Below are positions 4,806-41,366 of a stretch of DNA of 64,000 nt, piece after piece. Numbering within the stretch: position 1 is the stretch's first letter; each line of letters begins with the position of its first letter. The notes beneath the pieces were generated by a model. It was given only the letters and a program-made list of their open reading frames with translations. It did not search any database and was not told where the DNA came from. Position numbers and translations under genes: made by a program. Origin of the DNA: Pocillopora verrucosa (Eukaryota > Cnidaria > Anthozoa > Scleractinia > Pocilloporidae); NCBI RefSeq assembly GCF_036669915.1, contig NC_089325.1:12542735-12606734 (forward strand). The letters run 5' to 3'.

Positions 4806-5121
4806 CTCGTCATTCTCGTTATAAATACACTTAATTTATAGCAACAGGAGATCACTTCGGATGATCACATCCAGAAATCGTAGAAAAATTATTTCCTGAA
4901 TTTAACACGGATAAGCTTAACGTCATGTTCAATCGTTTTCCCAGTGAGGTACGACCAGATAAGTGACATGACATTATTATTTCCCTGATAAATTTCGATT
5001 GAAACCTTGATTCGTGCCGTCACACAGTACAACGTACGATAAATATGGGTGTAGCGCGATATTCTCAATTGGACCTCAGTAAAATTGTCATGCCAAGCTC
5101 ACACAAGTGGTTCCCAGGCCG

Positions 5122-8100
5122 TTAGTCGTTTCCCTCCAACATGTCCTTTACTGTTCGATAAGTACACCTGTCCATCTCGGGGCCGATTTCTGCCAGAACG
5201 TCATCCACCAAGGCGCGTTGTCTGGGTTGCTGAGAAATGATCAATTCACCAAAAAGGTAGATACCCATTCCCTACAAATGAGGATAAAACATGATGGAGC
5301 ATTGTTGAAGCCTAAATACTCCTCATTGCCTCTCTAAGTTGGAACTTGAATTACGCATAAACAGAATCCCGGGTAGTCACCGACACTGGTAAATAGTTAT
5401 TTCAGTGCATACTAAAACAGTTAGATAATAAAACGCAAAAGATGATTTTAACTCATTTATCCCACCAATGATCAAAAATACCAAAATTGGCAGTAATATG
5501 GCAATCTAATCGGCCAACTTGCCGTTGTCGATAAGATTTCATACAACACTGCTTGCGTCAACGTGTCACGCACTAAAATAATCGTTTTATTTGGCGTCAA
5601 TACTGTGGTAAAAAAAATAATTTGTTGCGGACTCACTCGGCTTCGCGTCGTGAGTCCACAAAAGTTTGACCATTGTGATGACGAATATCGTTTTCCGAAA
5701 AGATTACAGACTACGCTAAGCCACTGTCGATTTGTTAAATTTTCAGGTGCAAATCCTACGCGAGTTGCTCGGAAGTGTAGAGCAAAGGATATTTGGAGTT
5801 TAAGTAGCCAATTAGAGCGCGCCTTCAACGCGATCAACTGTTTTAATATACTCCTAATTCCAATAACAGGAGATTTCCAAAAATTCAAGAAAGAAAATTT
5901 CTATTTTGAGCTTTTTTACCTACCTGATCCTCTATCAAAAATCTCCTTACATCTGGTAACCCTGGAGTGAAACTATAACGAGAAAACAGGGAAATAACTA
6001 TTTTAAGTAAGAGCAAGTATGTTTGTTTTGCTTCCGTTCGTGCTTTGATTGGTCTAGAAAACTCGCACCAGACTCTCGACCAATCAGATGCAAAACTAAA
6101 ACCATTGCAATTTAGTCCGTCGTGATTGGACAAAAAGAAATCGCGTCACCCTCTCAACCAATCAGATGTAAGAGTACGGCAAATGCGACGCGGTCGCTCA
6201 CGTTTCTCCAAACTTCACGCTGTCTACGGTGCACCACTCCCTTTGAGTTCTCATCGGTTTCTTATGATATTTAATACTTTGGCATCACTAGCCGATTTAA
6301 TCTTTTTGGTTTTTACGATACTCATTTGAAAGGCACTCCAACCATCATTAAATCAACGGCGAACACTTGCCACACTTACTTATGTTTTACCACGAGTTCA
6401 CACCAGCGATGTCGAATCTGCAAAATGAAAACACGCGGTCATAACCAATGCACCTAAAACCCAAGGGCTGAGGAATATCATGCTACATAAACCTTCGTTT
6501 CGCTATGTTTTTTATTGCCGTTGTAGTGGCAGATTACTGAGAGTTCCTTTTAGGACATTCGTGTACTGTTGCAGCTGTTGAGAAATGGCTGTTGGTGGAG
6601 GCTCGACACAATTATCATGATTGGAAGTTAATTTAAAGTATAAATTTAGTTACGCAAGGTGAAGGTCAGAGAAACTACAAAGAACATAAAAAGACTGTTA
6701 GAGTGGTTAAAATTGGACGTTGTATTCGAGAAACGGCTTCCAGGGAAGAATTAAATGAAAACAGCGCTAAGAATAACTGACAAACCTCGGCATTTCCGTT
6801 TGATAAGTTGTAACACTTGTCCAACTGACGCAGTGTGTTATGGGATATCGCCTCTCGCTCCAAAAGTTTTTCCAGCAACAAAACAACTTGTTCAGCGACT
6901 TCCTAACATTCGAAAATAAAAGAAAGAAAAGAAACCGTTATACTAACCGTCCGGTTACAGTCGTTCGAGATTTGTAGAACTACATCGGCGTTTGACTTCG
7001 GGATTCTTCGGATCGGTTCGGACTAGAGATTAAAACTTAAAATTTCGCCGAAGAATCACTAACCAATCAGCTGTTGTTCTCTAAATAATCGCACCGCAGG
7101 AACACGCACTAAATTTAGATTTTAAAAAAGTAGCGTTGGAATAAGGGTACGTCTGGGGAATAATTGCATTCACTTTATGGTCTCGTGGTTCGGATCGTTC
7201 CGAAAAAAATACCGACCCACGGTTATGACGTTTTTGGAGCGGAACAAGTACTACACAATGGCTGCTGTTGTATTTACAGGAAAAAAAATAGCCCTCACCA
7301 AATTGGAGCTGGGAGGTTGCTTTCTCTTTCGCAATTTGAGCGTCTTGTTCCGTTTGTTAATCATGTCTTGTTTCTTCCAGACCTGAAACTAAAAATATCC
7401 GACAATTCCACCAGATCAGCAACTAGAAATCGGCAATGAATCAAGTGATAAATACCAACAGTTTTCCTGAGCTAGGTAACCGCGCACATACCTCGTTTTC
7501 CACTTGTGAAACAAGTTCATTGTCCGGGCTGTCAAACCTCTTCGGAAAAGACTGGGTACAAAAAAAATAAGAACTCTGGCCGTTTAAGTATTAATCCTTT
7601 ACACCCTAACATCAGTATGCATATTCTCCGTACTGTTATCTGTTCATTTCCTAAGATGCTGACATGGAGAACATGTCAAACAATCAAGAGCTCCTCTTTA
7701 GCTTTAGTTGGTGATCCATTCATATTCTCACAAACTCAATGTGTGACTAGTAGCGTGCATACAAAACTTTGACCATTCCTATTGGCTGGAAACACTTCAA
7801 TTAGTCCCGAACGACAAACAACGCTGAAATATAATGTATATTATTGACAAACAATCAAATAATTTCTCTTGGAATTCTGAATAATTAAGAACTTGTAAAT
7901 TTTCAAAAAAACTACCAATTACATTTTACCTGAGGACTTAGGCATTTTTTCTGGCCTTTGAAAAAAATTCTCTAAATCACTGATTCCTTATTCCAAAACA
8001 CAATGACACTTACAAAATTGTTGATTTAGTTTTTAGCTTGACAGGTTTAATGTTTTCTACCTTTTCTTTATTATTTTTACCGTACAATAAGATACCCCTC

Positions 8101-11100
8101 CTTTCCTTTCCCTCCCCGCCAAACCCAGGACGAAAGAAACAAAGCACTCAAGAGGTGCGAAAAATCTCTCGTGGCTGGCACCTTCACAGCCCTCTCAGTC
8201 TACTCGAAGCGACTGAATAGTTTTTGTCTGCTAAACGGTTCTAATAATATCATCAGGTTTTTTCATCAGCCAGTTTGGGGAGCCAGTGTCTATTCTTGCG
8301 CTTATTTGTTCCTAGCTACATAACAAACTCACCTTGGGTAATCCCGGTCTTTCCAGCCATTCGCTCATAAAATTATCCTTCATTTCTCTTTAACAAGAAA
8401 GAAGCTCACAGTTACTAGAGTATCACAAAAAAACAGAACGAAGGGAGATGCTTTATTCAACGGTTACGATAGAAGCTCTTGAGTCTTACCTTGGTACATC
8501 GGGAAAACTTTCAACAAAGAAGCCAAAAAAGTCCTATATGGTCATGAAAAAGTAACGATTAATAACACCTCATAGAAAGTCTTGATAGCCCACAGGCGGT
8601 TAAGGATGTTTAAGAGTCGTTTTGAATTTGCATTTCACAAAAACCATTTTGAATTTGGATTTTATGAGAGAATGTATTTATAGGAGAATGTATCCAAATA
8701 AAAATCTGCCTTCAGTAAAAATATAAAAAATGACGTACTTTACTTTTGAGTTATTTCTTTAACTATCTCTTTGTGACTGATGCCGTTTCAATACCAACTT
8801 AGATTTCAAGTTGTACCACCTATAACAATTTGTTTTCACTTTACATAGAAAGTTATAAAAATAACTCAAAAGCAAGCTAAGATAGTCATTTCTATTGCAT
8901 AATTTTTACTTGAGGCACAAATTCCCTTGTAAAATGCAAATTCAAACGGTACTCGTAATATGCAAATTAAAAACTGCTGTCATTCAACCTGGGCTGCCTG
9001 TGGATACTGCTATATTTGACTAATTTTTCCTTAAAAAGTCAATATTCTCTAAAACTTTGAAAACTATAATACTTCATACCTAAATTGCCTGGAGGTTTGA
9101 CCCGTGTATCTACACCGTATACCAAAACTTCATGACAAACGAGATTACTCATACTAACTATGCCGGACACTAATCGACAATAGACTTGGCACACTAATAC
9201 AAGTAAAGGTTCACCGAGGCAGAATTCATCCTTATACTTGGACAAACCAATTTATTTCATACTTAAGTCGATGAACAAAATTTACTTCCGACAGTCTTTT
9301 TAATGGGATGAGAATCTACACTATTGCGGCACAGCAGCTTCATTGAATCTTAAGCCATAAAAATAAACACCGGACTTACCTCTGAAGTAACAAGTTGCTC
9401 TCTGAAATGTTGGACATATTCAAACAAAAACTGATCAAATTCCTCAAGTCCAACCATAGTCGCCATGCAATGAAGTAAAAAGTATCCCTGCAAGGAAATA
9501 AGACATGATCATACGGCCCTACGCTGTTGTAGAGCGGTTGTATGGGGTGGTAAGGACTGCACTTGTGCCGGAGCCTGTCCCGATTTTCGTTTCATATAGC
9601 GACTAGGAATTCTTTACTACCCCAGGATGGCATGTTAATTCACGGCTGGTTCATCACAGGTTTCCTTCCGCCAACCCAAAATTTCGCCGTACCCATTTGA
9701 CCCTTGACTGACATGACTGACCAAGACTGAATTTCTCCTTACAATATCAGTCAGACAGATAGTGAGAATAAAGGAGATTATGAATTGATCCTATACCAAA
9801 TCATCTGAATTGAACAGCAGACAGTAAGGTGGATTACTGATGAGATTTTGAGGATGAAGGGGTTGAACTCCTGGGTGGAGAAAGGCAATGTGTTTAACCC
9901 AAGAACATAACACAACGACCCGCCTTGGTCTCGAACCCGGACTTCTCAATCCGGAGTCCAGTGCACTGACCATTAGGCCACCATGTCACGGCTTCCTGCA
10001 CTCCCTGAACAAATGAACAATAAGTAAACAGGGCGCACCTTGAGGTAATGAACTTGTGTCCATTTTCTGGAGCAGATTTGACCGAACTGGACCACAGTGT
10101 GAGGTTTGATAGACACAGAATCAGACTGACGCGAGCTCCTCTTAACTGCTTCGGCTGCTGAAATAGCTGTGAATCATAAAAACAAGCGTTTATGGGGCTA
10201 CTTTAAAAGTTAGACAGTTTTTTTAATAACGGAGGTAAGTTTCTAAAGAAACGATAGTGCTGAGTCGGTGGGAGAGTATAACGAGGTAATTTAATATTAT
10301 CAACTGAGTTGAAAACGTAGATTGGCCACCATAAAGAGTTTCAAAGCCGACGTTTCGAGCATTAGCCCTTCGTCTATCGCTCTGAAGAGGGGCTAACGCT
10401 CGAAACGTCAGCTTTGAAACTATTTACGGTGGCCAATTTACGTTATCAACTGAGTTGATAATACTGAGTTGATAATAATAAATTACCCGGGTTTTTTTTC
10501 AGATTCATTTGTTGTTAGAGTCAGTTGTTACCATAATCAAAAGGAAAGGCTCTTACCAGATTTCGGTTTGGCGACTTTGGGCCTGAAACGAAAAGAAAAC
10601 ATCCCATTTAGTTAGCTTTACATGCAAAATTATAGGCTTGTCTTGAATTCTGCATTTCAACGATTCCTTGGTTTTGGTTACAGCATTTAGAGCAAGGTGC
10701 CTAAATCTTCATTTGTAAGTCACTGTTATTTGCCTCTCCAAATATTTCTTCTTTACGATTTTCTTACCTCAAACACTTGAGACTGTCATCACACTCCTTG
10801 ATTTCAGACAATAAACATCTGTGCCGGAGAATTTGCCTCATTTCTCGAAAAAATCTGTCTTTATCCCTAGACCACTGCGGAAGAAACAAATTCGCCAAAT
10901 TCAGCAGAACACAGGTTACAAAAATACTATGTCTCAAAGCCTGCGTAGTTGGCAGTTTTGTGTGCGCTGAAGCGATGAGTGGCTGCTTGAGATGGGAGAT
11001 ACTTGCACCTTCGCAACTCACAAACGAGCGCACACAAAACCATCATCAAGTGCTAAAAAAAAAACGCAAGCATAGCGTCTTCATGCCCATATGGGGCATT

Positions 11101-14100
11101 TGAGGTCGCTGAAAAAATACCAATATTAAAACAAGTATCCATACTAGCAAGAGAGATTGGTTCCTAAAAGGAGGCCAACCGGTCATTTTACAAAGCGTAG
11201 CCAGAAAGGAGAACTCAGGGCAACAAAGATAAAATTCAGTGAGCAGCAGAGAGGAAGACTTGAACCCAGGATCCCACCAGTGCCCTTACCACTCGGCCTC
11301 TCTCCAGTACACTCTCTCTTATAATGTACATAAGTTACATGTTAATAACTTCTGGAAGTTAAAAGGTTAAGTATGGACGTAAGTAATTGTTAGTCTCCAA
11401 TCTTATCGTCTAAAAGTTAAGGTTTCGGTCAAGCGTAAATGAAAGCGGTAAAAATTCACCGCTTCGTGTCTCGGCAAATTTCCACCACCTCCACTTCGGT
11501 GAATAGTTGTCCACTATCAATGTCGGGAATTTATTTTTACTTATTTTGCGTAAGAAACACGAACTGTCCACGTACCCTCTCAGCCTTTGATTGAATCTTC
11601 TCTTCTATGAACGTGGCGAACCCCTCTGAAAGCCATTCTTCGCTCCAGTCCTTGGCGCCAACCAGGAGCCCGAACCAGGCGTGCGAGATCTCATGTGCCA
11701 GTCGCACGCGCATGCTCGCATCACCAGAAAGAAGGGACTGGGACAGAAACACCAGATTGGGACTAAAAGACAAAAAAAAAAGAGATGAAAGTCACCTTGG
11801 ATTGATTTCCAAGGTTAAGGTTTTGGACGACATAAAAGAAAGAGGAATTTTGAACTAGTTATGAGCAACTGGTCTGGAACGAAAGAGCGGATCTTGAAAA
11901 CGAGAACGAACTGAATATAAACCAACCTTTTGAGTCCCATGCAAGCGAAACACTTTGGCAAAACCAACATGTCCAACCGTCTGAATGGATAAGGACCTAA
12001 CAACTCGCAGGAAGCTTCTAGAAATTTAGGCGCGTATTCTAGCAACTCCTCTGCCGCCCTGTCAATCAAACTGGGCGGAGCAAACAAACGACACGTGACC
12101 GGCACATTGGGATTATCACCGTTTTTAGTGTCGGCGGTTCTAGATAGCCGGCACTCCCACCACCCCACAGCCAAGGCCAGAGTTGAGCAAGGCAGTGGAC
12201 AATCCATCTCATAGTGGTAGGTCACTGCAACATGATACAAAAAAAAAAAAAGGTTTCTTCTAGAAAATCCACGATGCCGATTTTTGTTAAACACTTGGGT
12301 ATGATTTTAGGAACAAATGAGCAGTAGTTTCACGACTCTCTCCGACGACTTCTGCAATTTAAATTCCCATCCAGAGTATAAGTCGAGTCCATAATTTCGT
12401 CAAAACGCAATCTGATTGATCAAACGGCACTAACATTTTTGGCCGATCACTGAGGCAGTAAAGGAAAACCAATGACACTTCGAATAGCTTTTGACAAATG
12501 CCTCCCATTCGCCGAATTAGGGAGACCAATATCTCTGTTTCTAGCGGCCGTGCATTTACTGATCGACATACACGCGCCATTTAGCTACCTCACGATTTTT
12601 CCATCTATCGTCTATCAAGATTTCAAGTTAGTCGCCTGCAATCCGTTTCAATCTTCTCCATCCTTACCGACCAGAAAATGAAAGAATTGAAGTCTTACCT
12701 TGAGTATCATTCCGGGTGGTTTTCCCAACAAACTGGTTCCCACTCATTAACACAACACAGTCCTCCGGCACGTGGATCGATGCCTGCCATGTTGACATGG
12801 CAATCGGAGGCTCCTGACATGGCATCAGAGAACGATTATTGATGTACGCACCGGGTGAGTAGACAGAAGGCCTGGTGCACAGAAAAAAATACAATTTGAA
12901 ATCATTCAATTTCTTGGAAATTTCCAGGCCATTCTAAATTTCCTCACAAATTAATGGGGAGCGTTCGGCGTTGTATCAAGACAGGATTTCACCAACTAAC
13001 TGATCGTTCGTTTACTCTGTTAAACTGTTTTCTAGATAACGAATTTATATCATATGCAGAAGTTAAAAAGTTACAACTAGGAATAAGGGCCCAGTTGTTC
13101 GAAGGCCGATTGGCGCTACCTAAGGGTTCAATTGATAACTGGGTCTCTATATTCGTTTGTTCCAAAGCCTGTTTCAGATAACTTTCTTCACTCTTTCTAT
13201 AGCATCCATTCATCAAACTGTAGGCAGAAAGAATTATACGGAATTTTCTATTGAAGCTTTCAGATCTGAAGTCAGATTTTACACTAATCCTGGGTAGTCT
13301 TAACCCAGCTTTGAACCACCCGTCCCTGGTCGAGGACGACGCCTCACTTACTTGCCATCTTGGTCAGTCGCCCAAGTCAATGACGATCCTTCTGGACTAG
13401 TGTGGTATTTAATCCAGACACATCTGGGCCACGCCTTGCCAGTTGCTTCAGGTTTCGAAATCTGTACACACCAACCATACACTGAATACGACAGGCCCTT
13501 AAACGGCAAGGGCGTGTGGGATTTATCGCCGAGAATGTTCCCTAAGAAGCCGAGTGGTACCTCGGATGAAGTTGTTTCGTGTGACAAGAGGCCGCTTTGT
13601 TTATGTCGGCAAAATGTTACTTGGAAATCATCTGGAAGAACAACTTCGCTCACAGATTCAATGTTCACTAAGGTACTGTCTAACGTCATTTGAAATTGCT
13701 TTTTAGTGACCTCTTCGTTGCGAGGTTCAAGAAATAACACTATGTTTCCTTTCATACTTTTTTCGTTAAATTCCACAGACAAGTCAAGAATGTAATGATA
13801 CACAAGAACTTCATCAACATTTGCCATCAACGGCAAATCGTCGCTTTTATCCCATTTAGTGCCAATGGATCTTTCATCTTCACTCGTTCCCTTGCAATCA
13901 GAATCAGATTCACTTTTTGTTCTCTTCGTCGAACTTTGAGCTACGTCACAAACTTCCTCAGTTGATAGAGACCTTTTCCTTCCACAACTGCCTTCTCCCC
14001 CTGCGTTTTCACCAGCATTGGTGGCATAATCACAAACATCTTCCATATTTAAAGAGTATTTCAAGTTACATCCGTCAGTTTTGACCTCTGTGTGTTCCAC

Positions 14101-15632
14101 ATCATGACTTCCTTTACAATAATCCGTAAAATTCTGAAGCCATGATCGGTATGAGATCTTCATTTGCACTCCATTTGGCAGAGTGCGGGAACTTGTATCA
14201 CTGACGGTTACCGATGACTTACTCCTGTTATTTTTCTTGTTTTTCTTGTTTTTATTCTTCTTCTTCATCTTTCTCTTCTCCTGAATTGTATGATCATCTG
14301 CCCCACATTTTCCAGAGCATGGGGAAGGGATCGTGGTGGCATTTTCATCGACCACAGATTCCATGGAGCTTCCTTCAGCCATCGACATGCTCACGCTTGT
14401 AGCATCAGAACTGGTGATTGACATCAGATTCTCAAGACGAGGCCCATCCTCAGCTCTGTACATTGTACCTTCTGCATCCTTGGACACCTCTTCTAAATTT
14501 ACACCAACCCCAACCGAGATAACGGCTGAACTCAGTTTGTCGCAACCCATCACACCTTCTGAATTCGTACGCAAGACATATTCATTGTCAATAAGCTCCA
14601 CTTCCCCTTTCTCCTCTGTTATACTCTTGCCCTCCCCATCTTGGCTCGTGCCTGATGTAGGGCTAATAGCTATACATGCATCCTTGCAAATCATGGATTC
14701 TATTCCATTGTGACACAAAGCATTGTCTGCTTCCTCCTCTTTGGACCACGCATTCTTGTGTACGGTCGCAGATAATCTGAACGTTGAAGGTGAATTCTCC
14801 AAAAGCGTCGCGTCATTTGGTTCCTCGACAAGCCTATGCTTTTTATGATCTGTCATAAAGTTGCCATCTTTTTCCTTTGACGATCCTGAATCTTTTCTAG
14901 GCGTATTAGTTGATGACAAAGAGTTTAAAGCTGATGATGAAATGTCGTGAATCGTGACATCACCAAGATCATGTCCTTCAATAATGGGAACGTTTTCAAC
15001 CAAAGGCTTATCGTTGTGGTTGATCCCTGTTGGCAAGCTTGAAGCTGCTATAATTTTACCGTCACATGAAGGGGATTTATCGTGAAACGCTTCATCAGCT
15101 GACGCCTCAATGCAAGTTAAAGTGTTACAACCAGAGCTGAGTACAACTTTATCTTCATTTCCCCCTACACTGGAAGTTGTAGGTGTCTCACACTGCCCTG
15201 TCGTACTGCCTTGCTCCTTCACTTCTGTAGTAAGCACATTGCTTGACACTTCATTCCCAAAATTGTCGTGAAACGATTCACAAGCGCTTTCGTCTATCAT
15301 AGACGTGCATACCACTGAAGGTAATGTTAGGCAAGAGGAAGAATCTGACTCTAGATTGCGCGCTGGGGGTTGGCTTTCATTTTTGGACATATAAGTGGAA
15401 GCTCCTTTCTCGTGAACAGATTCCACCTCGTTTCCTTCACTGGAAGTCACGTGGTAAGCTTTCCCAGATTTTTCAATCGTAGAATTCGACTCTACAGGCG
15501 TTGGCGCCGCTGATAGCAAATGCATTCCACACTTTCTGCTCAAGCCTGACAACACGTGGCAAGTTTCCATGTACACTTCTTCCAACGTCCAAGATGACAA
15601 ACCATGTCCAACTGGCCTTTTGCTGTACACGG
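5122..15632 (-). CDS. AOPEP: Aminopeptidase O (M1 metallopeptidase), 3' fifteen exons of a longer transcript
   Basis: Exons in transcript order: 15632-13352, 12871-12699, 12224-11927, 11762-11576, 10874-10768, 10582-10557 (26-nt microexon), 10166-10039, 9487-9380, 8533-8490, 8387-8333, 7551-7492, 6902-6786, 6417-6380, 5972-5924, 5271-5122. All phases agree. The enzyme part starts near DDLPLMAN (about 13843). It continues through [20 protein letters not shown] and carries the zinc site HEISHAWFG (HEXXH, about 11681-11695). The third ligand Glu falls 18 residues later in the WLSEGF motif. The C-terminal armadillo-like region ends [13 protein letters not shown]...MLEGND. This order matches vertebrate AOPEP (C9orf3), a peptidase that removes N-terminal residues from peptides such as angiotensin III. 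The peptidase part is about 677 aa. In frame upstream of it lie about 600 residues absent from the human protein. Confidence 0.93.
5640..6200. repeat. CCAAT/ATTGG-bearing dispersed repeat in AOPEP introns
   Basis: The segment around 5750-5860 (AGCAAAGGATATTTGGAG, AGTAGCCAATTAGAGCGCGC) recurs at 50265-50350. The segment 6045-6160 has inverted ATTGG/CCAATCAGATG motifs flanking ACTCGCACCAGACTCTCGAC. The same motif, in the opposite orientation, recurs at 17330-17420, 53520-53600 and 55950-56010. The AOPEP exon at 5924-5972 sits between the two repeat pieces. Confidence 0.5.
7590..7715 (+). repeat. Family A MITE, left half only
   Basis: TTTACACCCTAACATCAGTA, TGCATATTCTCCGTACTG and CAATCAAGAGC match the left half of the family. 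The right half is replaced by unrelated sequence. Confidence 0.65.
9787..9990 (-). repeat. tRNA-derived SINE
   Basis: Read on the minus strand, it begins GTGACATGGTGGCCTAATGG then TCAGTGCACTGGACTCC. That is followed by a B-box-like GGGTTCGAGACC and a tRNA-unrelated body. The A and B box spacing is that of an RNA polymerase III promoter, but no full tRNA cloverleaf is present. Confidence 0.65.
10225..10492 (+). repeat. Hairpin MITE, near full length
   Basis: The left end GGAGAGTATAACGAGGTAAT is followed by TATCAACTGAGTTGA, GGCCACCATAAAGAG and an arm ending in CGACGTTTCGAGCATTAG. The right side repeats these in reverse complement (TAACGCTCGAAACGTCAG, GGTGGCCAATTTACG, TATCAACTGAGTTGATAA). The two halves form one long imperfect hairpin, so the element is almost a palindrome. 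Further copies lie at 19800, 26345, 52075 and 1688. Confidence 0.8.
11225..11315 (-). repeat. tRNA-like SINE fragment
   Basis: On the minus strand it reads GAGAGAGGCCGAGTGGTAAG, then GGCACTGGTGGGATCCTGGG and TTCAAGTC. This is A/B-box order with a leucine- or serine-tRNA-like head. It is too diverged to be a tRNA gene. Confidence 0.5.
13352..15632 (-). CDS. 2.3-kb joining exon: end of the unknown protein, Ser/Thr/Asp-rich linker, start of AOPEP
   Basis: This single 2281-nt exon is open throughout. It begins [20 protein letters not shown], which looks like folded-domain sequence continuing from upstream exons. About 500 residues of low-complexity Ser/Thr/Glu/Asp follow, then a strongly basic block ([16 protein letters not shown], likely nuclear localisation). 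Next come [17 protein letters not shown], two copies of a SL-x2-EVCD-x-A motif ([17 protein letters not shown]) and finally AOPEP. The acceptor (TTTTAG then CCGTGTAC) is in phase with the upstream exon ending at 16210. The donor at 13352 is in phase with AOPEP exon 2. Internal methionines could also serve as a start if AOPEP has its own promoter inside the exon. Confidence 0.8.
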
Positions 15633-16209
15633 CTAAAAATGTACAAAGTTCTACAATATTTAACACTGTTACATAGCAGACGTTGAGAGTCCTTGACAAG
15701 GATCTAAGTCAAAATCGAGCGTAAGACCAGTGTCCTCCAGAGGCAATAGCAACTGGTGTTTTCTTCAGCTACTTTAACACGACAAAACAGTATTTTACTG
15801 GTCTTAATATGAAATAAACTTTATTTTTTAGTTACTCTCGCATGTAACCGTATATAGATCAAAACTGGAAAGAAAAACGATCCGTAAAATGGGAATTGAT
15901 GCGAGAGGAAGAGATTAACAGGTGTGTTCTTTCTAATATTCTGTACGCTGGTGCTCGGCCTAACCGTGCAAAGTAACCCTAATGGTTCGATATTTAAGCT
16001 GTCTGTTGTGCAGTGGAGCCGAGATTTTCCCTCTGAAGCACCCGTTTCCCACTGGTTACTTTTACTTGTTACGGTTGGTCACCAAAAATGTTTTGAAAAC
16101 ACCTCTACGATTCGTTGTAATCTTTAATCTACGATTCGTTGTAATCTTTCGTTGGTCACTTTAGTTTTGATTTCACGACACTGAATTGAAATGGTTACTA
16201 ATTTCTCAC

Positions 16210-19200
16210 CTGAGGGAATTCCTTTCCCAGCTAATCGGTTCCCGTTCTCCCCAATGGCAAGATGAATCATGTAGAGAAGTACTGGGAATGAGGAAGAGCA
16301 GTCTCTGTTGTCATCTTCGACAAGCCCTGTCACCGCAAGATGTCCGCTACCAGACATTTTTTCGCTATTGCCCAGAACCTCTTTGAGCTTATTCTTCATT
16401 ACAAAGGCCTGCATAGCTGTAACATGTTGAAAGTGAATCCCATAACAAACATCACGTGTTCTGAGATCGCTCCAGTCCTTTATCAGCCTGATAAGGTCCA
16501 AGTTTGGCCGGGAAAACATGGGCCCTATTGCCACGAAGAATACCTTGAGAGCATCTTCGGGCAAATGATTAAAGTAATTCTTCAGTGACTCTTGCAAGAG
16601 GTGGACTTCATCTCCTTTCAATTGGAAAACCATATGTTCGAATTTCACGTCCGAAGCTTTGCGCATTCGAAGATTTGCAACAATAGCATCAGCCAAGGCA
16701 ATATGTGATCCAAACTGCCAGGAATTGTAAGCTTCTCGGTTTGATGCAGAAGGAAAGTCATCCTCGACAAGAAAAACGACTCTCATGGATGACATGACCA
16801 AACCAGGAGGAGTGACCTAGAAGAAATGGGTGACAAAAAAGATACGAGCAAGTAATTCTTGTAAAAAGGAATATAGTTAAAAAGATAAGGTACCAAAGGC
16901 CAGCAGTAACAATCGATAACATGTAAAATGGCAGGCAAAAACATTTTACACCCAACATTTCTACGGTCCCGACAAGATGTTGCCGGTTTTCCTGCGACAT
17001 AAAAATACCGGAAACGTTATGTCCCGAATCGAAAATTTTCATTTTGTTTTTGCGCTAAAAGTCATCTGCCGCCACATAGCGCTGCCTGCCAAGATCGCCT
17101 AAGAATTTTTTCCGAATAACTCGAGGAAACTCTGCCTTCATTTCTTCGAGGTCCTCCTTTGCCAACCGTGTTGCAGCGCTTCTTGATTCAATTTGGTAAA
17201 ACTAAAACCAAAATAATCCCAATAACCAATCCAATCAGAGCGTGGGAAAGTACTACTACGAACTAAAGAGAACTCAAAGTTAAAAAAAGCAATCTTCTCG
17301 AACAGCGGGACAACGCGAGAGGCCAAGGTGCGGCTGGTATTAGTTTTGCATCTGATTGGCGGAGAAAATGGTGCGAGTTTTCTGGACCAATCACGAAGTG
17401 AATTAATGCAAAACCAATAAAAAAATATGACAACAGTGGTACCTGATCTTCTTTGCCTTCTGTTGAAAGCCTTTCCTCGACATTATCACAGCCTAAGAAC
17501 CCTAATCCCATCTCCCGTGCTAGATCTGGAAATCCCTCGGTGCATGCTCTGTTCACGGTATCCTTCAGTCGTGTACCACATGTGCCTGTCGTTTTCCTGC
17601 AAACCATGGTCGAGAGCATCAAATGAAGATCAGCAACTTGGGAACCAGTCTCGTAAACTTCTTTTGTACTGCCGCAAAGAATGGAACGAAGTTTGGTCTT
17701 CAGCCAATCAGCATCCACAGGCCAATCCTAAATTCATCGAGATTTGTACACACTAAAGATTAGTAATCTGGAATACCGAAGGATGATTTGAGAAATTAAG
17801 GAACAATGCACCGTAGCCTTCCTCTAGAACAAACTCTAGTGAGTTAAATTTCTACTTTCCAAGCATAAAGGCTGGGACTCTTAAAGGATCAATCAACTAC
17901 TTTGAAACAGATTCTATGCTTACCACCACAGAAAGATGTCTCTGGACACATTTTAACATAGCAAACATTGCACAAATTCAAACCAAGTTTAACTTGTCTA
18001 ACTCTGTTGAGGTTTGAAAGCTGTCACAAGAGTGAAGATTTTTCTCGACCTAAAGCAAATTTCTGCATCAACTCGTCACCATGACGAAATGGAGTGATTT
18101 CTTTATCCAGTGTCTCCCGTTCTTCAATCATTAATAAGAAAGAAACTTACTGCATGAGAACAATCTAATTTCAATGTGAAACAAGATGAGATGTGTGTAG
18201 CCATCAGAGCATCTTCCAGCATTGTCTGGCAGGCCATTACAAAGTCGTGAAGAGAACAAAATTCTTCGAATCCACTTTCTTTTCCAATGGCAAATGGAGT
18301 GCATGAAAAAACTTGACCTTGACAACTTGAGTGGCAGCTCAATACTGCAACAACTTCAACTGTAAGAGAAGCTCACATTTTATATCAAGTGCCAAATTTA
18401 AATAGCCAATATTTCTTATTGATGAAATTTTTTTAATACCATCAAATCAGGGTTGTTAGGTGTTTAATTTAAAAGAATTGGCATATGTGACAATAATTAG
18501 CATGAAAAGTGGTTGCTTTACCAAGGTAAAGAACCCTTAAACCATCAAGCTGGGGTTGTTAGGTGTTTAATTTTAAAAGAATTGGCATATGTGATGATAA
18601 TTGATATCAAAGGTGGTTGCTTTAAAGAGGGAAAGAACCCTTTTTTGTTAATATTATGATTCCATGTTGTCATGCATCTGCCCAGTAATACTTCACATAC
18701 AACATGGAAATGTGGTACAAAACAAAAGTGGCACACATGGCACAGCTGAGTGTGCCTGTATTGTTCTTACCACATTTTAAGATCATCAGTGATCTATTAC
18801 GGTACAGACCCATAGCGACATGGAATTTACTTGTTACTCATAAGTGATCTCAGCCTGTACAATGCAACTGTCTTTCATTCATGTTTCAAAAATATTGTTA
18901 ATGCATTTTTTAAAATTTAAATCATGGTTTTACCAATCAAAATAATTAATAAATGGCTGAATGATTAATAGAAGCAACTTTTACACTCAGTGATTGTTAC
19001 CTGTTGGCCAGTGACTTTTCAAGAATGACAGCTTTGTAATGGATTCCATTAGTTCTTGACGACTCACAAAGTTCTGAGTTATGACCACACAATTGTTGTT
19101 GTATGTCCCTGGATGATTGACCAACTAACATCAATAACTATAAGTAAAGTCTACATACAAGACTATAGTACATACATGTAGCAACAAGAGTCTGTCTCAG

Positions 19201-22200
19201 AAATGGTGGAGTGAAGTGATAACACTTATCACTACTTCAACAGCAACTGTTCCTTAATGAGATGCAAGTTTATTACAGGTTTCTTTCTTCCCAGAAAATC
19301 GTGAAGATTCACAGACAGTTAACTGGTCCCATTAACCTTCCTGAGCGGAAGTCAAGAAAGACAATGTAAGAGGTAAATGCCTAAGAACCCTGCCTGAGAA
19401 CACACCACTTGTTATAACCCTTGCCAGGGCTTGATTCAAAACCTTTACATCTGAAGGCCACACATCTTCAGAGATCCATAGGCAGGTCAGCAGGCAAGAC
19501 CAAGATTAAACAGCAGTTGTAGTTTGATGCAAAAGTTTAATTGACAAGTGAGAGAGGCAGGGCTCTCACCCATTTACTAAACTTTCATGTCAAAGTGAAA
19601 CCACTATTTTATTTCCCTCTTGCCTGATTATTTGCCTCTAAGTAGCCACAGGTAGAGTCCAGCACGCTGCTCACTGGTTTACAATGTGTCTTATCATTAA
19701 CCATCAAAAGTGTTCAGTGATGAACAAATATTGCATTTGTGTTTTTACTGAAACTATAGTTTACAAAAATAAACCTTCAAGAATGGACTTAATATATAAC
19801 AGAAGGTAAGTTTCTTAAGAAACTGTGGTGCTGAGTCTGTGGGAGAGTATAACAAGGTAATTTAGTATTATCAACTGAGTCGCTAACGTAAATTGGCCAC
19901 TGTAAAGAGTTTTGAAGCTGACATTTTGAGCATAAGCCCTTCCTCAGAGTGATGACGAAAGGCTAACAGTGGCCAACTTACTTTATCAACTCAGTTGATA
20001 ATACTAAACTACCCTGTTAGTATATAACACCTCACCCCATATTTTGGCATCACATACCTTCAGCCAGAAGAGCAGCTTTCAGAAACAAGGAAATCCAATC
20101 ACCAAACTGGGACTGCGGGTCTTTTAAATTAAACACCGCAAGCACCTAGAGAGATGTCAAAAGATAAGCTATCCCATACGAAAGATAGAAAATAAGTTTG
20201 AACACACTGCATAAAAAAATAAAAGTAATGAATGAAAGGCTAAACTAATGAAAGGTGTTTAAATTTTAATCTTAACACATTTTCACATCACTCATGATCT
20301 ACATGCATTACTGCTTATTACTACTGAGTAATCATCTGTTTCCAAGATAACATATTGCATTTTTGTTTCTGAAGCATTTCAGCAGGCCAGAATTGTAAAT
20401 CCTCAAATTTGATTGGCTAATTGTGTGCTTGTACCTAGTCTAGTTCTTTACAATACAGTCTAGATGTCTTTTTTTGCACAGAAAAACAGAAAAAAGCCAA
20501 CCAGCAGAAAAAAATAAATAGTAAGTTATTTACTGGTCTAGGTCGGTCTGTATGGGAAAATAACTGCGCCGTCGGTCTTACTGGAGACCTTAGCACAGTT
20601 TTTTCCCATACTGGCCTCCTGCCCCGTAGATAACATATACATATTGCAAGGAAATGTTACATGCTTTAACATGAGGGGTTAACCCTTGCAATCTCACAAT
20701 TTACATAATCATTTCATTCATTCTCTACATTTATTGCCATACATCTCTTACAACCTAAGCTCCAATGATTTAGTATTAAATCAAACAATATTGCCTGGTT
20801 GATCTTTTCCTTTCTTCTTTTCAATTTTTTTGCTTGGAAATGTATTGAAATTGATTGCGGAAAACCTCTTTTGGTCACCTTGAGGAGTGAAGTGGTTAAA
20901 GGGTTAAATTGTTTAAACTAATTATTTGTGTCAACTAATGGTATTAAATATTAAATATTAAATATTTTTCTTAATTATAGCCATACCTTTCTGACGCCTT
21001 CAGGTAACCATTGCCTCTCGATAAAATCATTGCTATCAACAAGATGAGAGTTGCTGAATTCATCATCAGTTCCAGAATCCTTTTCTTTCATATAATGATG
21101 AACTTCTTTGCCAACATGTCTTTCTAGAACTTTTACATTCTTTATGGTATTGAGGAGCCAGCAAGGCTTCCCTAGAAGATAAATGGCTAAAATTTCAGGT
21201 AAAGTGATTTTAACTATGAAAGAAACAAATAGGATCCAATCTAGGATGTTTTGCAGATTTTACTCTAGAATCTTAACAAATTCATCTATTGCATCCAAGC
21301 AACTAACTATACCCCTACCCAACAAACCTTTAACTTTTTACACTTAACGTCAATATGCATATTCTCTATACTGTTCTCTATACATTTGCTAAGGTGCTGA
21401 AGAGGAGAATTTGTTCAACAATCAAGAGCTTCTTTAGTTGGTCATTGTTACCTTTAGTCTCATAACCTAAATGTTTGATTCAAGGGTGATATTGTAAGGA
21501 GAAATTAGTTGTTAGTCAATGTCAAAGGTCAAAGGGTTAATGGGTGTTAATCTTTGTAAGTAATGCAGTCCTGTTTTGGACAATACCTTGCAAGGCTTCT
21601 GAATGCTGCTTGCACTGTGGAAAGTCGCATCGTACGTATCTCGTGTCTGGAGATGTGTCAAATGCAAAAACAGTACTGGAGAACCGTTTCAAAAGTTCTT
21701 GAGTCTATGAGACAACATGTGGAAAATGAAATGCAAATTATCAAAGATATTTTTTTATATAATGCTTGTGAATAAAAAAGTATCTACAACATGAGAGACA
21801 ATTCACCTTAAAGAGAATAACAGTGCTAACAATTCTTTCAGACTGTTTCTTTTTTTTTCAGTAACTAAAGCAAAGATCTAAGAGAAAATTTATCTGCCTA
21901 TCACTGAATTTTTTTAAATTACAGATCACCTTTTTCCTTCCTCTTCATTTTAAATTCATTAACTTATTTATTAACTCTTCTGATCTTTTCAGGCCCATAA
22001 CTTTAAGGGAAACTTTTCAGTTCATTTAAGACATGAAAAGGAATGCTGGGTGGTTTCCAGAGCTAGATAAGTTCCTTGAGTAACAAATATTCCATAACAA
22101 ATTAGGAAATTCAAAATGATGCGAATGAAGATGTTAACCAGTGAATGACACAGGTATGTCCAGACAACAAGGACTGCACCCGAGTTTCACCCTTAGCTAA

Positions 22201-22619
22201 ACCTTAACATTTATTTGATATTAATATTCTCCACACTGTTCTCTTAACGTTTCCTCTCGCACAGACAAGGAGAATTTATTTGACAATCAGTAACTGACCA
22301 AACTGGTGATAATTTCCTTTATTCTCATCACCTTTGCATTTGATTCAAGGGTGATACTGTAAGGATATTACAGACGCCAATCAGTCTAAAGGGTTGAAAG
22401 GTTAACTGAATAATACCCCATTCACACCAGCAAAACATGTTTTGTTAAACTGGTTTTCATTGAATGAAAATTATAAACAGAGAACTGAAAAACTTGATTT
22501 TCCATTGGATTCAAGTACTTGCTAACTTGCATTTCCAATGTGCTGCATTCAAGTCAAAAATATTCGGCTAAATAGTTTCTATGAAGAAAAAAAGAATTAA
22601 ACTGTGTTTAACAAAACAA

Positions 22620-22650
<31 letters not shown>

Positions 22651-23065
22651 GGGGCATAAGTCTCGATCACACACACAAACAAAAAGTGATATGCCTATCA
22701 TGAGGGATAACGAAACATTCAGATTTAGCTCTGTAGATGACTGAGGAGAGCTAAGTATCTTTTTATACAGACGAATGCCACGGCATCTGCTCCTCAAAAT
22801 TATATCACACTTTGAGGCACCCTGTTTTTCTGAGTGCTTGGTGTTCTTAACAAATTTTATCAATAAGAACATAATAGGTTAATTTTCATATAATAAAAGA
22901 TGCAAGTTAGAAGTTAAAAATCTCCTCGGACTAAAAAATAACCGCGGGAATCCTTACCTTGGCAGCACTGGTGTTATGTTCTTCCTTCGAACTTTCTGTC
23001 TGGTCTGCCATGTTGGACCATGTTGGTGCCCGCAGAAGATTGCTGTCTTCCAGCGGTATTTCCAT
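16210..23065 (-). CDS. Unrecognised protein, seven 5' exons, in frame with AOPEP
   Basis: Exons in transcript order: 23065-22958, 21166-20987, 20145-20058, 19108-19001, 18359-18151, 17727-17443, 16816-16210. Their phases (0, 0, 1, 1, 0, 0, 1) chain without a break into the exon at 15632. The start is MEIPLEDSNLLRAPTWSNMA; a second in-frame ATG (MADQTESSKEE) at 23011 may be the real start. Alternating hydrophobic strands and helices (VLAVFNL, NCVVITQNFVSRQELMESI, VEVVAVLSC, MRVVFLVEDDFPSASN, LKVFFVAIGPMF) suggest Rossmann or von Willebrand A-like folds. There is no MIDAS-type metal motif that I can see. I considered M1AP and Treslin-type vWA proteins, but the match is too weak to name. The weakest junction is the acceptor at 21166, which has little polypyrimidine. 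Confidence 0.65.
17265..17425 (+). repeat. CCAAT-bearing repeat copy in the unknown-gene/AOPEP transcript
   Basis: It contains GCATCTGATTGGCGGAGAA, GGTGCGAGTTTTCTGGACC and AATCACGAAGTGAA, the same order as in copies at 53500-53610 and 55930-56030. Confidence 0.6.
18437..18646. repeat. Two-copy tandem duplication, unit about 104 bp
   Basis: GGGTTGTTAGGTGTTTAATT, AAAAGAATTGGCATATGTGA, GTGGTTGCTTTA and AAAGAACCCTT occur in the same order twice, about 103 bp apart, with roughly 10% divergence. They lie in the intron between the exons at 18359 and 19001. Confidence 0.8.
19800..20020 (+). repeat. Hairpin MITE copy
   Basis: AGGTAAGTTTCTTAAGAAAC, GTGGGAGAGTATAACAAGG, TATCAACTGAGTCG and GGCCACTGTAAAGAG match the 10225 copy. 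The central hairpin is partly eroded. Confidence 0.75.
20540..20630. repeat. Inverted repeat GTATGGGAAAATAACTG / CAGTTTTTTCCCATAC
   Basis: A left arm GTATGGGAAAATAACTG and a right arm CAGTTTTTTCCCATAC flank about 35 bp that include GTCGGTCTTACTGGAGACC. The arms match apart from one or two positions, so this is a small foldback element. Confidence 0.6.
21330..21541 (+). repeat. Family A MITE
   Basis: Full order of family A landmarks: GTCAATATGCATATTCTCT, CAATCAAGAGCTTCTTTAG, GGGTGATATTGTAAGGAGA and GTCAAAGGGTTAA at the right end. Confidence 0.75.
22190..22405 (+). repeat. Family A MITE, diverged
   Basis: Landmarks TATTCTCCACACTGTTCTCT, GACAAGGAGAATTTATTTGA, TTTCCTTTATTCTCATCACC, GGGTGATACTGTAAGG and AAAGGGTTGAAAGGTTAA are in order. 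It is directly followed by a different MITE at 22416. Confidence 0.65.
22416..22654. repeat. 239-bp MITE with perfect 14-bp terminal inverted repeats
   Basis: CCCCATTCACACCA (22416-22429) and TGGTGTGAATGGGG (22641-22654) are exact reverse complements. The subterminal regions also pair partly (ACATGTTTTGTTAAAC versus GTTTAACAAAACAAC). There is no coding capacity. A short AATA/CATA context surrounds the ends, but I cannot define the target duplication with confidence. Confidence 0.8.
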
Positions 23066-23086
23066 GACGGCAATTTTCAAAACAAA
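23012..23086. promoter_or_regulatory. Compact bidirectional promoter of ZMYND10 and the unknown-AOPEP gene
   Basis: The ZMYND10 ATG at 23087 and the two possible minus-strand ATGs at 23065 and 23011 leave only 21 or 75 bp between the opposing coding starts. With the outer start, the 5' untranslated regions would have to overlap. No TATA box is seen. ATGGCGG/CCGCCAT-type (YY1-like) sequence surrounds the ZMYND10 start. Confidence 0.55.
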
Positions 23087-26000
23087 ATGGCGGGCAACTC
23101 GAACTTGGAAACGAAGCAAGTTTTGTTAGCTTCAGAGGCAGAATTGTACATAGAGGAGCTAAAAACTTATTCTTTGAAGGAAATAGGAAGTCCAAAGTGA
23201 GCTTATATTAAGTTTTATTTAAGAGCTTTGTGCACTTTACTTCAGATTTTGATCACTCAATTTTTTTAGTAAGACTTGTTGCTATAGGAAGGTATATATA
23301 TTATTAACTAATTTGTCCTTCTTGTTTTTACAGATGGATGAGTCAACATGAATACATAGAAAAACTTAACATGCAGGTGAGATTGTGTGCTTAGTTGATA
23401 GCCCTTAGGCAAATCATTATTGGGTAAAACATCTGTTAAATACCTGTAAATTGTGCAAAATTAGATGAAAACCTAAGGGCTTGCTAAAGATTCTTGTTTT
23501 ATTTGTTTAACAGGCCATCATAAGTGCTTCGTCGCAGGCAGATGAATTTATCAAGGAACTGCTGATAACCTTGGAAAAGGTACCCACTCAAAATCAACTG
23601 AATTTATTCATAGCATTTGTTTATAACAAATAATATTAAATTGGTAAAAAATAATTACTTTGATAATTAATAAATAATTAGTTTCATGAATATGTTATTA
23701 TACATTTGTATGATGTATATTTGTAAGAATCATAGCATTTCATGAATAGCTGTTACTTGAGCCAGAGGCACTACTGCAAGCACACACTCATGAGTTCCAG
23801 ACTTTTAGATGTTGACCTTCAACTTCCAGGATCTGCTGCTGAATGCTAATGCTAATTCCCCCCTCAAGCTGCTACATATTTCCTTGCAAATTAGTTGCAA
23901 CTGTGCACTCTTGGCAGACTGGGGAATGGATTGTGTCAGTATTATGATCACAATCTGATTTAAAACCTTATGTTTGAGACCAGGGCTAGCCAATGTTTGT
24001 GATCTAATGGGCAAGTCACTTCATTCTTGCCTCCTCTCTGTCATGTCCTCCTTACGCCCTAACATCAGTATGCATATTCTCCATACTGTTTTGTATACAT
24101 TCCCTAAGACACTGACAAGAAGAGTTTGTATAACAATCATGAGCTTCTTTATTTGGTGATCATTTCCTTTATTCTCATAACCTTCATGTTTGATTCAGGG
24201 GTAATACTGTATCTTTCCTCTAGTGGGGCTTTTCTTGCTCCAAACATTCGGACAAGGCAAGCTTTCTTTTTTAAGAACAAAGTTTATTAAGCAACTCAAT
24301 GGTGTAATTTTTTTTAAACTCTCACATGCTATGAATAAATCTATTTTTAAGTACAAGCTGCACATAATTATGATACAAACAAAAACCATTCCATCTAGAG
24401 AATAACCATAGTAGTCGTGCTAATTTTGTATACAAAGGTATATTACAACCCTGTAAGGAGAAATCAGTTGTTAGTCACTCTTTTGAGTTAAAGGCTGGGA
24501 TAAAAAATAGGGGAAGAGGAATAACCTGAGGTAACAAGCATACCATAAATACTCTCAACCATTTAATGCTTGGAATTTCAAAGCAAGGATGAGCTCCAGC
24601 CAGATTAGTTGCACAGCTCCATTGCTGACTTTGCTTAGTTTACCTTGGTTGCTTTTCTTGCAAACAGATCCCTGTTCTGATTCACGAGTTGCTAGCAGTG
24701 GAGCTTTGGAAAGACAAAGTGTTTCCAAAAATCTTGGAGTTAGGCTTCAACCCAACAACAACCTTACCTATTTACTTTGTGGTAAGTTTTACAATCATGC
24801 TCATTTTCACCTGATGGTATAATCTTTTAAGAATTCTTTTGAATATTTAACATTCCTTACAATCTGTACTAGTTTTAGGTATTCCTGTTAATTTGAAATT
24901 TGCATCTGGAAGACATTGTTGCATAACGCTTAGCAAGCTGAATCCTAAATTGATAGGTTCTGGGCTTGAGCCATCTACCTGTAAGTGGGATAGACATAAA
25001 TACTCTCAGTCACTTTGGGCTTCAAAAAAAAAAATGGGCAAAGAAATGCATGCTATTGTGGGCCATTTATCCCCTTGAGATAATAACAACATAACCTAAG
25101 ATCTACAAACTAAGATCTTCTACAGTGTGAAAGGTATTGATCATTGTGAAAGTTGTGACTAACACTGCTTCTCGGCAGCTCAAAAATCTCCTAACTTAAA
25201 AAAAATGTTTTGTGGTATTGCAATGATAAATTGGAAAGCAGCAGAAAAGAAAAATACTGCTTGATGTGTTAGTATTAATTAAAATTATATTTGAGTTTTA
25301 AAAAGGTTGTCATTTTTTTGTCATTTTGTAGCTTTTTCATGAAGCAACAGTCATAAGCCTGCTGGAAACTATTCTTTATCATAAGGTAAGGTTGAGAGTG
25401 GTATCATCTGTCCTTCAACAGACCATAAGTCAATTGAGAACCAATCAAAATGCATGTATATTGATTCAGCTTTTCCTATAAATAGCCCTAGTATGCAAGC
25501 AAGTCTTTTGTGTTGCTGCCCGAGATCTAGGTTATTACTGGTACTTTAAAAATTATGGTAACTGGAAAATCAGATCTATTGGAGAGTAATAGGTGTTTGC
25601 AATTTGTGTCTTCGCAATGCAAATCCTCTAGAATTATCAATTTAAAGTGAAAGCTTACAGTACAGACCTCATACTTTTTTCATAAGGGGTATATATTGTA
25701 TCCATAGGAAGCATGTGAAGCAGCTGGTGACAGCATTCTTGACCTTGCTGATTACTGCCTCAGAAGAATATCACTACTTATTGCACAGTATGTACCACAT
25801 ATTGGACTGTTTTTAGGGAACATCAGTGATGTTTTTTAAATCATATTTGTCAGTTTGTGTTATGCTCTCAATTTAATATGATTCTTTTTGGCAAGCTTTG
25901 AAACAAGCAACTGATTTTTTATTGATTGTAAAACTTTAAACCCATACTTACAGACATGATGAGGTTTCTAGTAATGGAGAATTGACAGATTCCAGTGATG

Positions 26001-29000
26001 ATCTTTCAAGCATAGAGGTATTTTGTTATTTAACCATATGAATATTATGTGCTAAAATAATAATTGGGTAATATATTCACCACTTCTTAACGCTTAAACC
26101 CCTAAGAATAACCAACATCTAAATTGTCCTTACAATATCTTCCCTGAATCACACATTGAGGCCACAAGAATAAAGGAAATGATACCAACTAAAGGACCTC
26201 TTGATTGTTGAACAAATTCTCCTTATCAGCACTGAAGGAAATGTATCAAGGAGAGTATAAAGAATGTAGATAATGATGTTAGGCATCACATTTTTAGCAC
26301 AGAATTTTGTTAGCCACAGAAGTCTTTGTTTCCTAATGCCTATCTGACACTTTGAATAGAGAATTGGCCACCATAAAGAGTTAAAAGGCTGACATTTTGA
26401 GTGTCAGCCCCTCATCAATTGCTCTGACGAAGGGCTAACACTTGAAATATCAGCCTTTTAACTCTTTATGGTGGCCAATTCAAATTTTCAATTCAATTGT
26501 TAACACTAAATTACCTGCTATACTCTCCCACCAACACAGCACTGCAGTTTGTTTAGAAACTTACCCCCTCTATGGCCTTGAAAAGTGACTTTGTAAGAAA
26601 GTTTTCTCTCTTTTCTTTCAGGAGTTAAAGAAGCAAGATAAAACAATATTCTTTACTGTTTGTGTCAAGTCTGTGTCAATTCTTAGATACATCACAGACT
26701 CTTTATCAAGGTAAGGTGAATTACAAATTAGACAGAAAATTTGACTTTTTAAACTTTTTTTCCATTCACTTGCCAAACTTTCATAAGGCCTGTGATGGTA
26801 AAGATCTGCTTTTTTTGTAGTCTACCTCTGAGTGTCACGACAAGGCTACTTAACACACACAGTAAGTGTCAACTGTTTGTTACCCTGTCTCTATTGTCAT
26901 GATAGTACTTTGACTAAGAGGAGTACAATTTGGTCTGTAATCTTACAACTGATTGATAATTTGTTAAACCTTCACACCTTCACTTCAGCAAGCTTTTTCT
27001 CCAAAACATTCTCTATTCATTTCTTAAAGTGCTTACAAGGAGAAATAGTTTAACAATGAGGAACTTGTCTCATTGGTGATCATTTGCTTTATTCTTGTGA
27101 CCTCAATGAGTGATTCAAGGGTGATATTGTAAGGAGAAATTAGATGCTGGTCACTCTTAGTAGCTATAGGGTTAATCCAGAGTATGATCACAGTCAGAAT
27201 AATATTGGCAGCAAGGATTCTTGTTACCAATTAATTAAAGCTATGACAAAATTTAAGAAGCAAAATATCCCTTGATAAATACAATTGTAATGATTAGCTT
27301 GAATTTTTCATAAAGAAAATGAACTCAATAGGCTATATAATTGTTCAGTGTATGTCAAATACAAGTGTTTTTCTTGTCATGTGCTTGAATATGTAGAGAG
27401 ATAGCAGTTTAACTAAGAGAATTAAAGACACCCTTAAATTCAGTTTTTTTTTCTGTTTCACACTTGCAGATACCCCTGTAGTGCTTGTTCAGTTGGTAGA
27501 AAATCCTCCTTGGATAAAAAGAGACAAAGGTGACCCTTTTCATAAACATTTAGAGCTGCTTTTTAAGAATTATTGGGTTGCAACAGTGGGAAAATAAAGA
27601 CCATGCAAATAAACACCCTAAATGGCAAGCCATTGCAGCAGCTTATGCCAGTTCACAGTCTCTAATAACTTCAGTCCTGCTTGTATGCCTGTATAAAGGT
27701 GAAATTATGGTGTGCATATTTTATGATCTATTTTAATGGTTTCACATTTTTGAACTCCAGGAAAATTGAAGAAATTCATTGATAATGCTTGGAAAGAGAT
27801 ATCAGAAAGAGAAAGACTTCAGCTTAGCAAAACAGAGGGACAAGTAAGTTTTTCCTTTCACTCACAAGATCTCATTTATTTACTAAATCTCCTTTCTATT
27901 GGTCAAACAATAATTATGATGTTAGTCTTGGAAATTTGTTATTGGATCAACTGATAATCTCCTAATTTATATTTTCCTTTATGCTGATCACTTTTATTCT
28001 AGTTCTAGTCTCCGTTTGGAATCAATTTGTTTCTAACAGAGAGATCATGCATTAGGATTTTGACCAAAAAAATTCAAGATTTTGTGTTTTTAAAATTTGT
28101 GTTTTATCCCTAGGTCTGGCTTGCCATTCATCAACTTCTCATGAATGAAGACTGTCAAAGAAAGTATGAATTTAACTCTTATAGCAAGGAGCAAATATTA
28201 AAGGTAATTGCACTGACATCTTTTTTTTATTTAGCAATAACTATATACTTGGTACAGTCTGGGCAGATCCAGTTGGAGGGGAGGTTCAAAGGCTCCAGAA
28301 CTCCCCCCTCCCCCTCTCCCTCAGACCAATGGGTTTCCTTTTACTACTTGTCTGTCATCAAAATGTTGGCAGTGACAGGATCAACTGTTAATACTCAACA
28401 TAGAGCATTTAGAATTAACATGTCTTAAAATATTTCTTAACTTATTTGGACTATAATCAAAGTTTGGATTTCCTCCCCTACCCCTACATAAAACTTCCTA
28501 AATCCACCCCTGTGGTCTTAATCAGCAGCTTGACTGAAAGGTGATGTCCATATTGTCGTTGACAATTGATTTTCTCGACTTTATTTTCAGCTACGAGGTT
28601 TTATGAATGAGGTTCTTCTGGATCAGATTCCCAGTTTGATTGATCTGCAACGATACCTTGAGCAACTGTCCATCATGGAACCACCAGCAATAAAAAAGGA
28701 CATTATTTTAGAACAGGTAAATGAATTGTGCTTGATTTTAAAAGCCAAACGTTTTGTTCACTTTCTCTGATCCCCTCTCTCATTATTATTTTTTTCTAAT
28801 TTATAAAAAAAAAATAAAATAAAACCAGGTTCCAGAAATTAGAGAGAAACTTTTAAAGGATAATCAAGGCAAATGGGAGAGGTTTGCAAAATACCAGAAA
28901 AAGGCTTTCTTTTCGCCATCAGCGGAGGATATTAAAAAGCAGGCTAAAATGTGAGTATACTTGACAATAATTATTTTATACTTCATAACTCCAAATCTTA

Positions 29001-41130: not shown

Positions 41131-41366
41131 GGTTTATGTCGAATAGAATGTTTATCCTTGAACGCACACAGTTTTCGTTTGCCCTCGCTGGTATTGTTCC
41201 AAATTAACCCCGTTCTTTCGACAGACAGTTTCTTTCTCGGTATCTCTATCACAGTGCTTTCCTAGAAAGCTACCAACCTTCTTAAACGACGATTTTCTCG
41301 CCTTCAAGATCGCCCTCAATTAAACCTCCTTTCAGCTATTCTTCGTATCGAAAATTTAGCGGAAAT

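Follow-up and report, generated by a model that had tools for sequence, protein, structure and literature searches.

Does the aminopeptidase O gene of the coral Pocillopora verrucosa code for the peptidase alone, or for a longer chain with a second module in front of it? The question arises in a window of 64,000 nucleotides, the whole stretch of DNA analysed (C14:12542735-12606734, in an assembly of 353 Mb and 52 contigs). A preliminary description had joined 22 exons of the minus strand into about 1801 residues, in which a front protein of some 530 residues was linked to the enzyme by a single exon of 2281 nt. Little is known about what aminopeptidase O cleaves or which partners it has. Among the papers listed in literature searches, with subscription papers mostly outside them, no report of an aminopeptidase O fusion of this type was found.

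As a sequence chain the fusion is confirmed. Both candidate ATGs (23065 and 23011) and, in frame, the AOPEP stop at 5122 are present on the minus strand, GT or AG is found at sites 16210, 15632, 13352 and 12871, and positions 5001-23300 contain no N, the locus being one assembled chromosome without gaps. Exons were chained with a script that was not supplied with exon borders and that used generic splice matrices. The splice and codon models were self-built and in part trained on exons 8 and 9; the codon training set consisted of the long exon and of exons spotted earlier by eye. In all eight runs the in-frame chain led from ATG 23065 to stop 5122. The number of exons varied from 12 to 40 with the penalty per intron, and exons 16816-16210, 15632-13352, 12224-11927, 11762-11576 and 5271-5122 were common to every run. 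The run at penalty -7 gave 23 exons and the 1801 residues first described. The curated model, i.e., the chain with exon 19108-19001 added and exon 2 lengthened (21704-21587) after reading of the sequence, has 24 exons rather than 22, 1870 residues and no phase conflicts. Its layout is a front half (residues 1 to about 612), a linker of 554 residues and the peptidase (1167-1870), encoded as follows.

22958..23065, minus strand: exon 1, front half, with the ATG and an alternative start at 23011; its donor is beaten by 0.2% of the GTs of the gene
21587..21704, minus strand: exon 2, open frame in fitting phase; acceptor and donor weak
20987..21171, minus strand: exon 3, from chain model and splice scores
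20058..20145, minus strand: exon 4, from chain model and splice scores
19001..19108, minus strand: exon 5, added in curation; picked by the script at penalties -5 and -3 only; phase fits
18151..18359, minus strand: exon 6, from chain model and splice scores
17443..17727, minus strand: exon 7, 95 open codons; splice sites weak
16210..16816, minus strand: exon 8, alpha/beta stretch, with the strongest coding signal in the front half and no second copy in the genome
15821..15864, minus strand: alternative short terminal exon if there are two genes, 14 residues and then a TAA overlapping AATAAA at 15825
13352..15632, minus strand: exon 9, in which the front half ends, the low-complexity linker and its basic clusters follow, and the first strand region of aminopeptidase O opens with DDLPLMAN
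12699..12871, minus strand: exon 10, aminopeptidase O, from chain, Pfam and AOPEP alignment
11927..12224, minus strand: exon 11, aminopeptidase O, from chain, Pfam and AOPEP alignment
11576..11762, minus strand: exon 12, zinc site HEISH-18-E, from chain and AOPEP alignment
10768..10874, minus strand: exon 13, from chain and AOPEP alignment
10557..10582, minus strand: exon 14, from chain and AOPEP alignment
10039..10166, minus strand: exon 15, from chain and AOPEP alignment
9380..9487, minus strand: exon 16, from chain and AOPEP alignment
8490..8533, minus strand: exon 17, from chain and AOPEP alignment
8333..8387, minus strand: exon 18, from chain and AOPEP alignment
7492..7551, minus strand: exon 19, from chain and AOPEP alignment
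7299..7382, minus strand: exon 20, basic cluster KLRKRK, from chain and AOPEP alignment
6786..6902, minus strand: exon 21, from chain and AOPEP alignment
6380..6417, minus strand: exon 22, from chain and AOPEP alignment
5924..5972, minus strand: exon 23, from chain and AOPEP alignment
5122..5271, minus strand: exon 24 with the stop codon, from chain, Pfam and AOPEP alignment
23066..23086, no strand: the 21 bp that separate the ATG of this gene from that of ZMYND10 (plus strand, ATG 23087)

Dispersed repeats, both direct and inverted, occur in introns of the gene (10233-10374 / 19804-19945 and 6022-6104 / 17335-17417). Between exons 7 and 8, an intronic minus-strand open frame of 48 codons with a stop (17058-17201) sits in CpG-rich DNA by CCAAT-like repeats; it could be part of another exon.

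Residues 1167-1870 are predicted to be a complete M1 enzyme of the aminopeptidase O type. Pfam profiles detect Peptidase_M1 (3.5e-24, 86.1 bits, cut-off 27.7), the leukotriene-A4-hydrolase C-terminal domain PF09127 (4.2e-15, 56.3 bits, cut-off 27) and the M1 N-terminal domain (8e-6), and the zinc site HEXXH-18-E is present as HEISH-18-E at residue 1510. The best PDB relative is leukotriene A4 hydrolase (1.9e-45, 159 bits). An approximate human AOPEP sequence aligns with 426 bits and 35% identity over residues 1167-1866. This alignment starts at DDLPLMAN in both sequences; vertebrate aminopeptidase O begins nearly at that motif. Judged from its sequence, the peptidase end of the gene looks complete and functional. 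The enzyme had been described as the last 677 or so residues; it is indeed C-terminal and complete, but comprises 704 residues in the curated model.

The front half is coding. Its chain score is 70.3, of which about 44 comes from exon 16816-16210, an exon that was in the codon training set. Dinucleotide shuffles gave a path in 49 of 60 cases with a best score of 7.9, and the reverse strand reached 5.1. In eight further stretches of the genome the score was 2.1 to 79.4, the high values (25.1 and 79.4) falling at real or apparent other genes. As the preliminary description held, the front half belongs to no recognised family: with the 621-residue query nothing rose above a Pfam cut-off, the only hit being PF06648 (E 0.083), and no convincing match was found among PDB sequences with a query lacking exon 5. 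The best PDB match, to hepatocyte growth factor, spans 30 residues encoded by exon 2 at E 0.0077 and was taken as chance. A second copy was not found in the coral's own genome, nor were relatives found in the bacterial and viral contigs searched. The Treslin_M and Fanconi_C profiles matched neither this genome nor 14 control genomes and are uninformative. An internal repeat of two modules was rejected, as 349 of 1000 shuffles were equally good. The length of about 530 residues given for the front protein fared less well than its existence, with about 612 residues found here and a further 554 of linker.

The front half is likely alpha/beta in make-up, going by the low-confidence fold model of exon 8, in which strands and helices alternate. 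The Foldseek comparison proposed for the translated front exons was run on exon 8, and the Foldseek and VIA matches of that model (RlmJ, SpoIIAA, APOBEC) were weak, mixed and set aside. The von Willebrand A label proposed earlier was not upheld: there is no Pfam vWA match, the structural matches are weak, and the one DxSxS among residues 1-612 (position 539) lies far from a first strand of the low-confidence model rather than after it.

The exon that connects the two halves is open from end to end over its 2281 nt, as described. With a codon model trained without exon 9, 17 of 19 windows in its frame have positive scores, and the remaining two stand at -0.02. The linker that it encodes (554 residues) is low-complexity and rich in Ser, Glu and Lys, with S, T, N, G, Q, P, D, E or K making up 66%. 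Basic clusters occur at residues 1022-1036 of the linker and at 1741 of the model; aminopeptidase O reportedly has a functional nucleolar localisation signal. AlphaFold gives exon 9 a pLDDT of 32.6, with 750 of 759 residues below 50. This is no evidence for disorder, since the known peptidase stretch is among the residues that score below 50.

Whether the two halves are parts of one gene is decided at the junction between 16210 and 15632. The donor at 16210 is strong, being beaten by 0.3% of GTs, and the acceptor at 15632 is weak, with 14.7% of the gene's AGs scoring higher. For the acceptor of exon 7 at 17727, weaker still, that figure is 26.8%. An in-frame acceptor at 15545 outscores 15632 (3.5 vs 0.2), so the true junction may be at 15545. 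The join from 16210 to 15632 is worth 6.8 bits if a separate peptidase would start at Met 15570, 11.1 bits at Met 15525, 29.8 bits at the third Met (15390), and 160.9 bits at the last of the 15 Mets. A later Met start would leave a long coding-like 5' leader without explanation, because the coding frame of exon 9 extends to its 5' end. By comparison, the terminal exon that opens at 15864 is worth 0.8 bits. One gene thus has a narrow advantage of some 6 to 10 bits, to which the cost of starting another gene is added; for such models the margin is modest. The front module, the linker and a complete aminopeptidase O are probably combined in one chain, as far as sequence can indicate.

Such a gene, arranged back to back with ZMYND10, would be one transcription unit of 24 exons from about 23.1 kb and would encode a protein of about 1870 residues. 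The chain would be transcribed as a single mRNA. The linker may be flexible and its basic clusters may help nuclear entry of the protein, the front module may bring the peptidase to its partner or substrate, and the peptidase would trim N-terminal residues of short peptides.

Gene prediction is known to produce erroneous fused models (PMC3927609). The best alternative, though less likely, is a pair of tandem genes; the preliminary description had itself offered two genes overlapping in one exon, with an internal promoter, as an alternative. The front half would then end at 15864-15821, or read through 16210 to a stop ending at 16124, and the poly(A) signal would be the one at 15825 or that at 16128. 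Inside the 2281-nt exon, aminopeptidase O would begin at Met 15570 or Met 15525, driven by a separate promoter located in the 577-nt gap, and the peptidase gene would have its own long N-terminal tail. Poly(A)-type signals are present on the minus strand (AATAAA 15825, ATTAAA 16128), and the possible terminal exon has a better acceptor than 15632 (3.4, beaten by 1.9% of AGs) and a stop that overlaps AATAAA. In vertebrates, the enzyme has its start almost at DDLPLMAN. However, that exon contributes 14 residues at a negative coding score (-2.7), and the join outscores it (6.8 to 11.1 vs 0.8 bits). Read-through scores -0.8 and bypasses the strong donor 16210. The 3' UTR would be nearly nil, and the control signals of both genes would need to fit into 577 nt. 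This gap is CpG-rich (observed/expected 1.06), but not above the neighbouring introns (1.13 and 0.82). The phase of the join also fits, as it would in one case in three by chance.

Somewhat more doubtful is that both products are made, a long fusion and, from an internal promoter in or before the 2281-nt exon, a short aminopeptidase O; such an arrangement is compatible with a single fused gene. The 15 in-frame Met codons upstream of DDLPLMAN within exon 9 and the CpG-rich DNA from 17.8 kb down are in its favor. In Nematostella, unmethylated gene-body regions carry alternative start-site clusters (PMC13345969). Against it, the CpG-rich stretch spans the whole 3' part of the gene and is larger than a promoter-sized island.

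CpG content changes sharply along the gene, with observed/expected about 0.3 over 23.1-17.8 kb and 0.9 from 17.8 kb to the stop. For comparison, four loci of the RNA-polymerase largest subunit were found in the coral's own genome with PF04997 and PF04998, the hits on each contig being assigned to one gene by nearness. The ratio changes inside these genes as well (0.19 to 0.82, 0.28 to 0.74, 0.14 to 0.81 and 0.10 to 0.71). For the two loci on contig C5, the fetched stretch begins only beyond the first domain hit, and in one of these two a CpG-rich island and a second dip take the place of a clean single step. In ZMYND10 the ratio goes from 0.09 to 0.65. The step at 17.8 kb therefore marks no boundary, given the similar change inside all four RNA-polymerase genes. 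A low-then-high profile agrees with cnidarian gene-body methylation as described in section 8 of PMC8857917. The profile fits one gene from about 23.1 kb; it fits equally two, with a wholly CpG-rich peptidase gene. The whole window is two-state in CpG, depleted at 1.5-4.5, 18-29, 33.5-39 and 56.5-60.4 kb and near-expected elsewhere, as in mosaic gene-body methylation.

A mis-join farther upstream, with exons 1-6 in one gene, exons 7-24 in another and a border at about 17.8 kb, is improbable: the CpG change point (17815-17850) and the weakest acceptor, that of exon 7, would suit it, but a like change point lies inside all four RNA-polymerase genes (two fetched only from inside the gene), and exons 6 and 7 meet in phase 0 with no stop.

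The start of the fused gene lies head to head with ZMYND10 (plus strand, 23087-29450), 21 bp separating the start codons if ATG 23065 is used and 75 bp if ATG 23011 is used. In the PDB, the matches of the MYND exon are all ZMYND10 chains (2.9e-8), and zf-MYND in Pfam gives 22.6 bits, just below the cut-off of 22.7. There is a weak CpG rise at 22.6-23.2 kb. An interval of 21 bp between start codons is tight for two promoters and counts against the single fused gene, the best explanation. ZMYND10 is a cilium-assembly gene. It would take a bold reading, and a very unlikely one, to see here a nuclear protein in which a new alpha/beta module and aminopeptidase O are fused, co-expressed with ZMYND10 from a shared start region; if true, it would tie a little-understood peptidase to ciliated cells.

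Other features of the window include a BTG family exon (40630-41133, minus strand, Pfam 1.8e-39) and an HMG-box exon (32928-33311, plus strand, Pfam 8.6e-16). Long acidic, Asp/Ser-rich open frames at 58545-60649 on the minus strand, with no Pfam match at E 0.01, are probably exons of one low-complexity gene.

A real fusion would be a novel form of a familiar enzyme; otherwise, the locus is an instructive tandem pair. Were the whole lineage to make the fused chain, the front module would name a likely partner or targeting device of the enzyme, and a search for the module's stand-alone relative would be a direct route to the enzyme's partners. With two genes, the locus would be a clean example of how tandem genes yield false fusion models.

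AOPEP (C9orf3) is among the closest of the known systems. The likeness covers the whole peptidase from DDLPLMAN on, including HEISH-18-E, the LTA4H-type C-terminal domain and a basic cluster ahead of the last helices. The difference is in what precedes DDLPLMAN, 1166 residues in the present model compared to only about nine in the human enzyme. Leukotriene A4 hydrolase and aminopeptidase B belong to the same M1 subgroup and the former is the best relative of solved structure, but its match is 159 bits vs 426 for the approximate human AOPEP sequence, and both enzymes are without a front module or linker. The likeness to von Willebrand A and Rossmann-like domains consists of the strand/helix alternation in the low-confidence model of exon 8.
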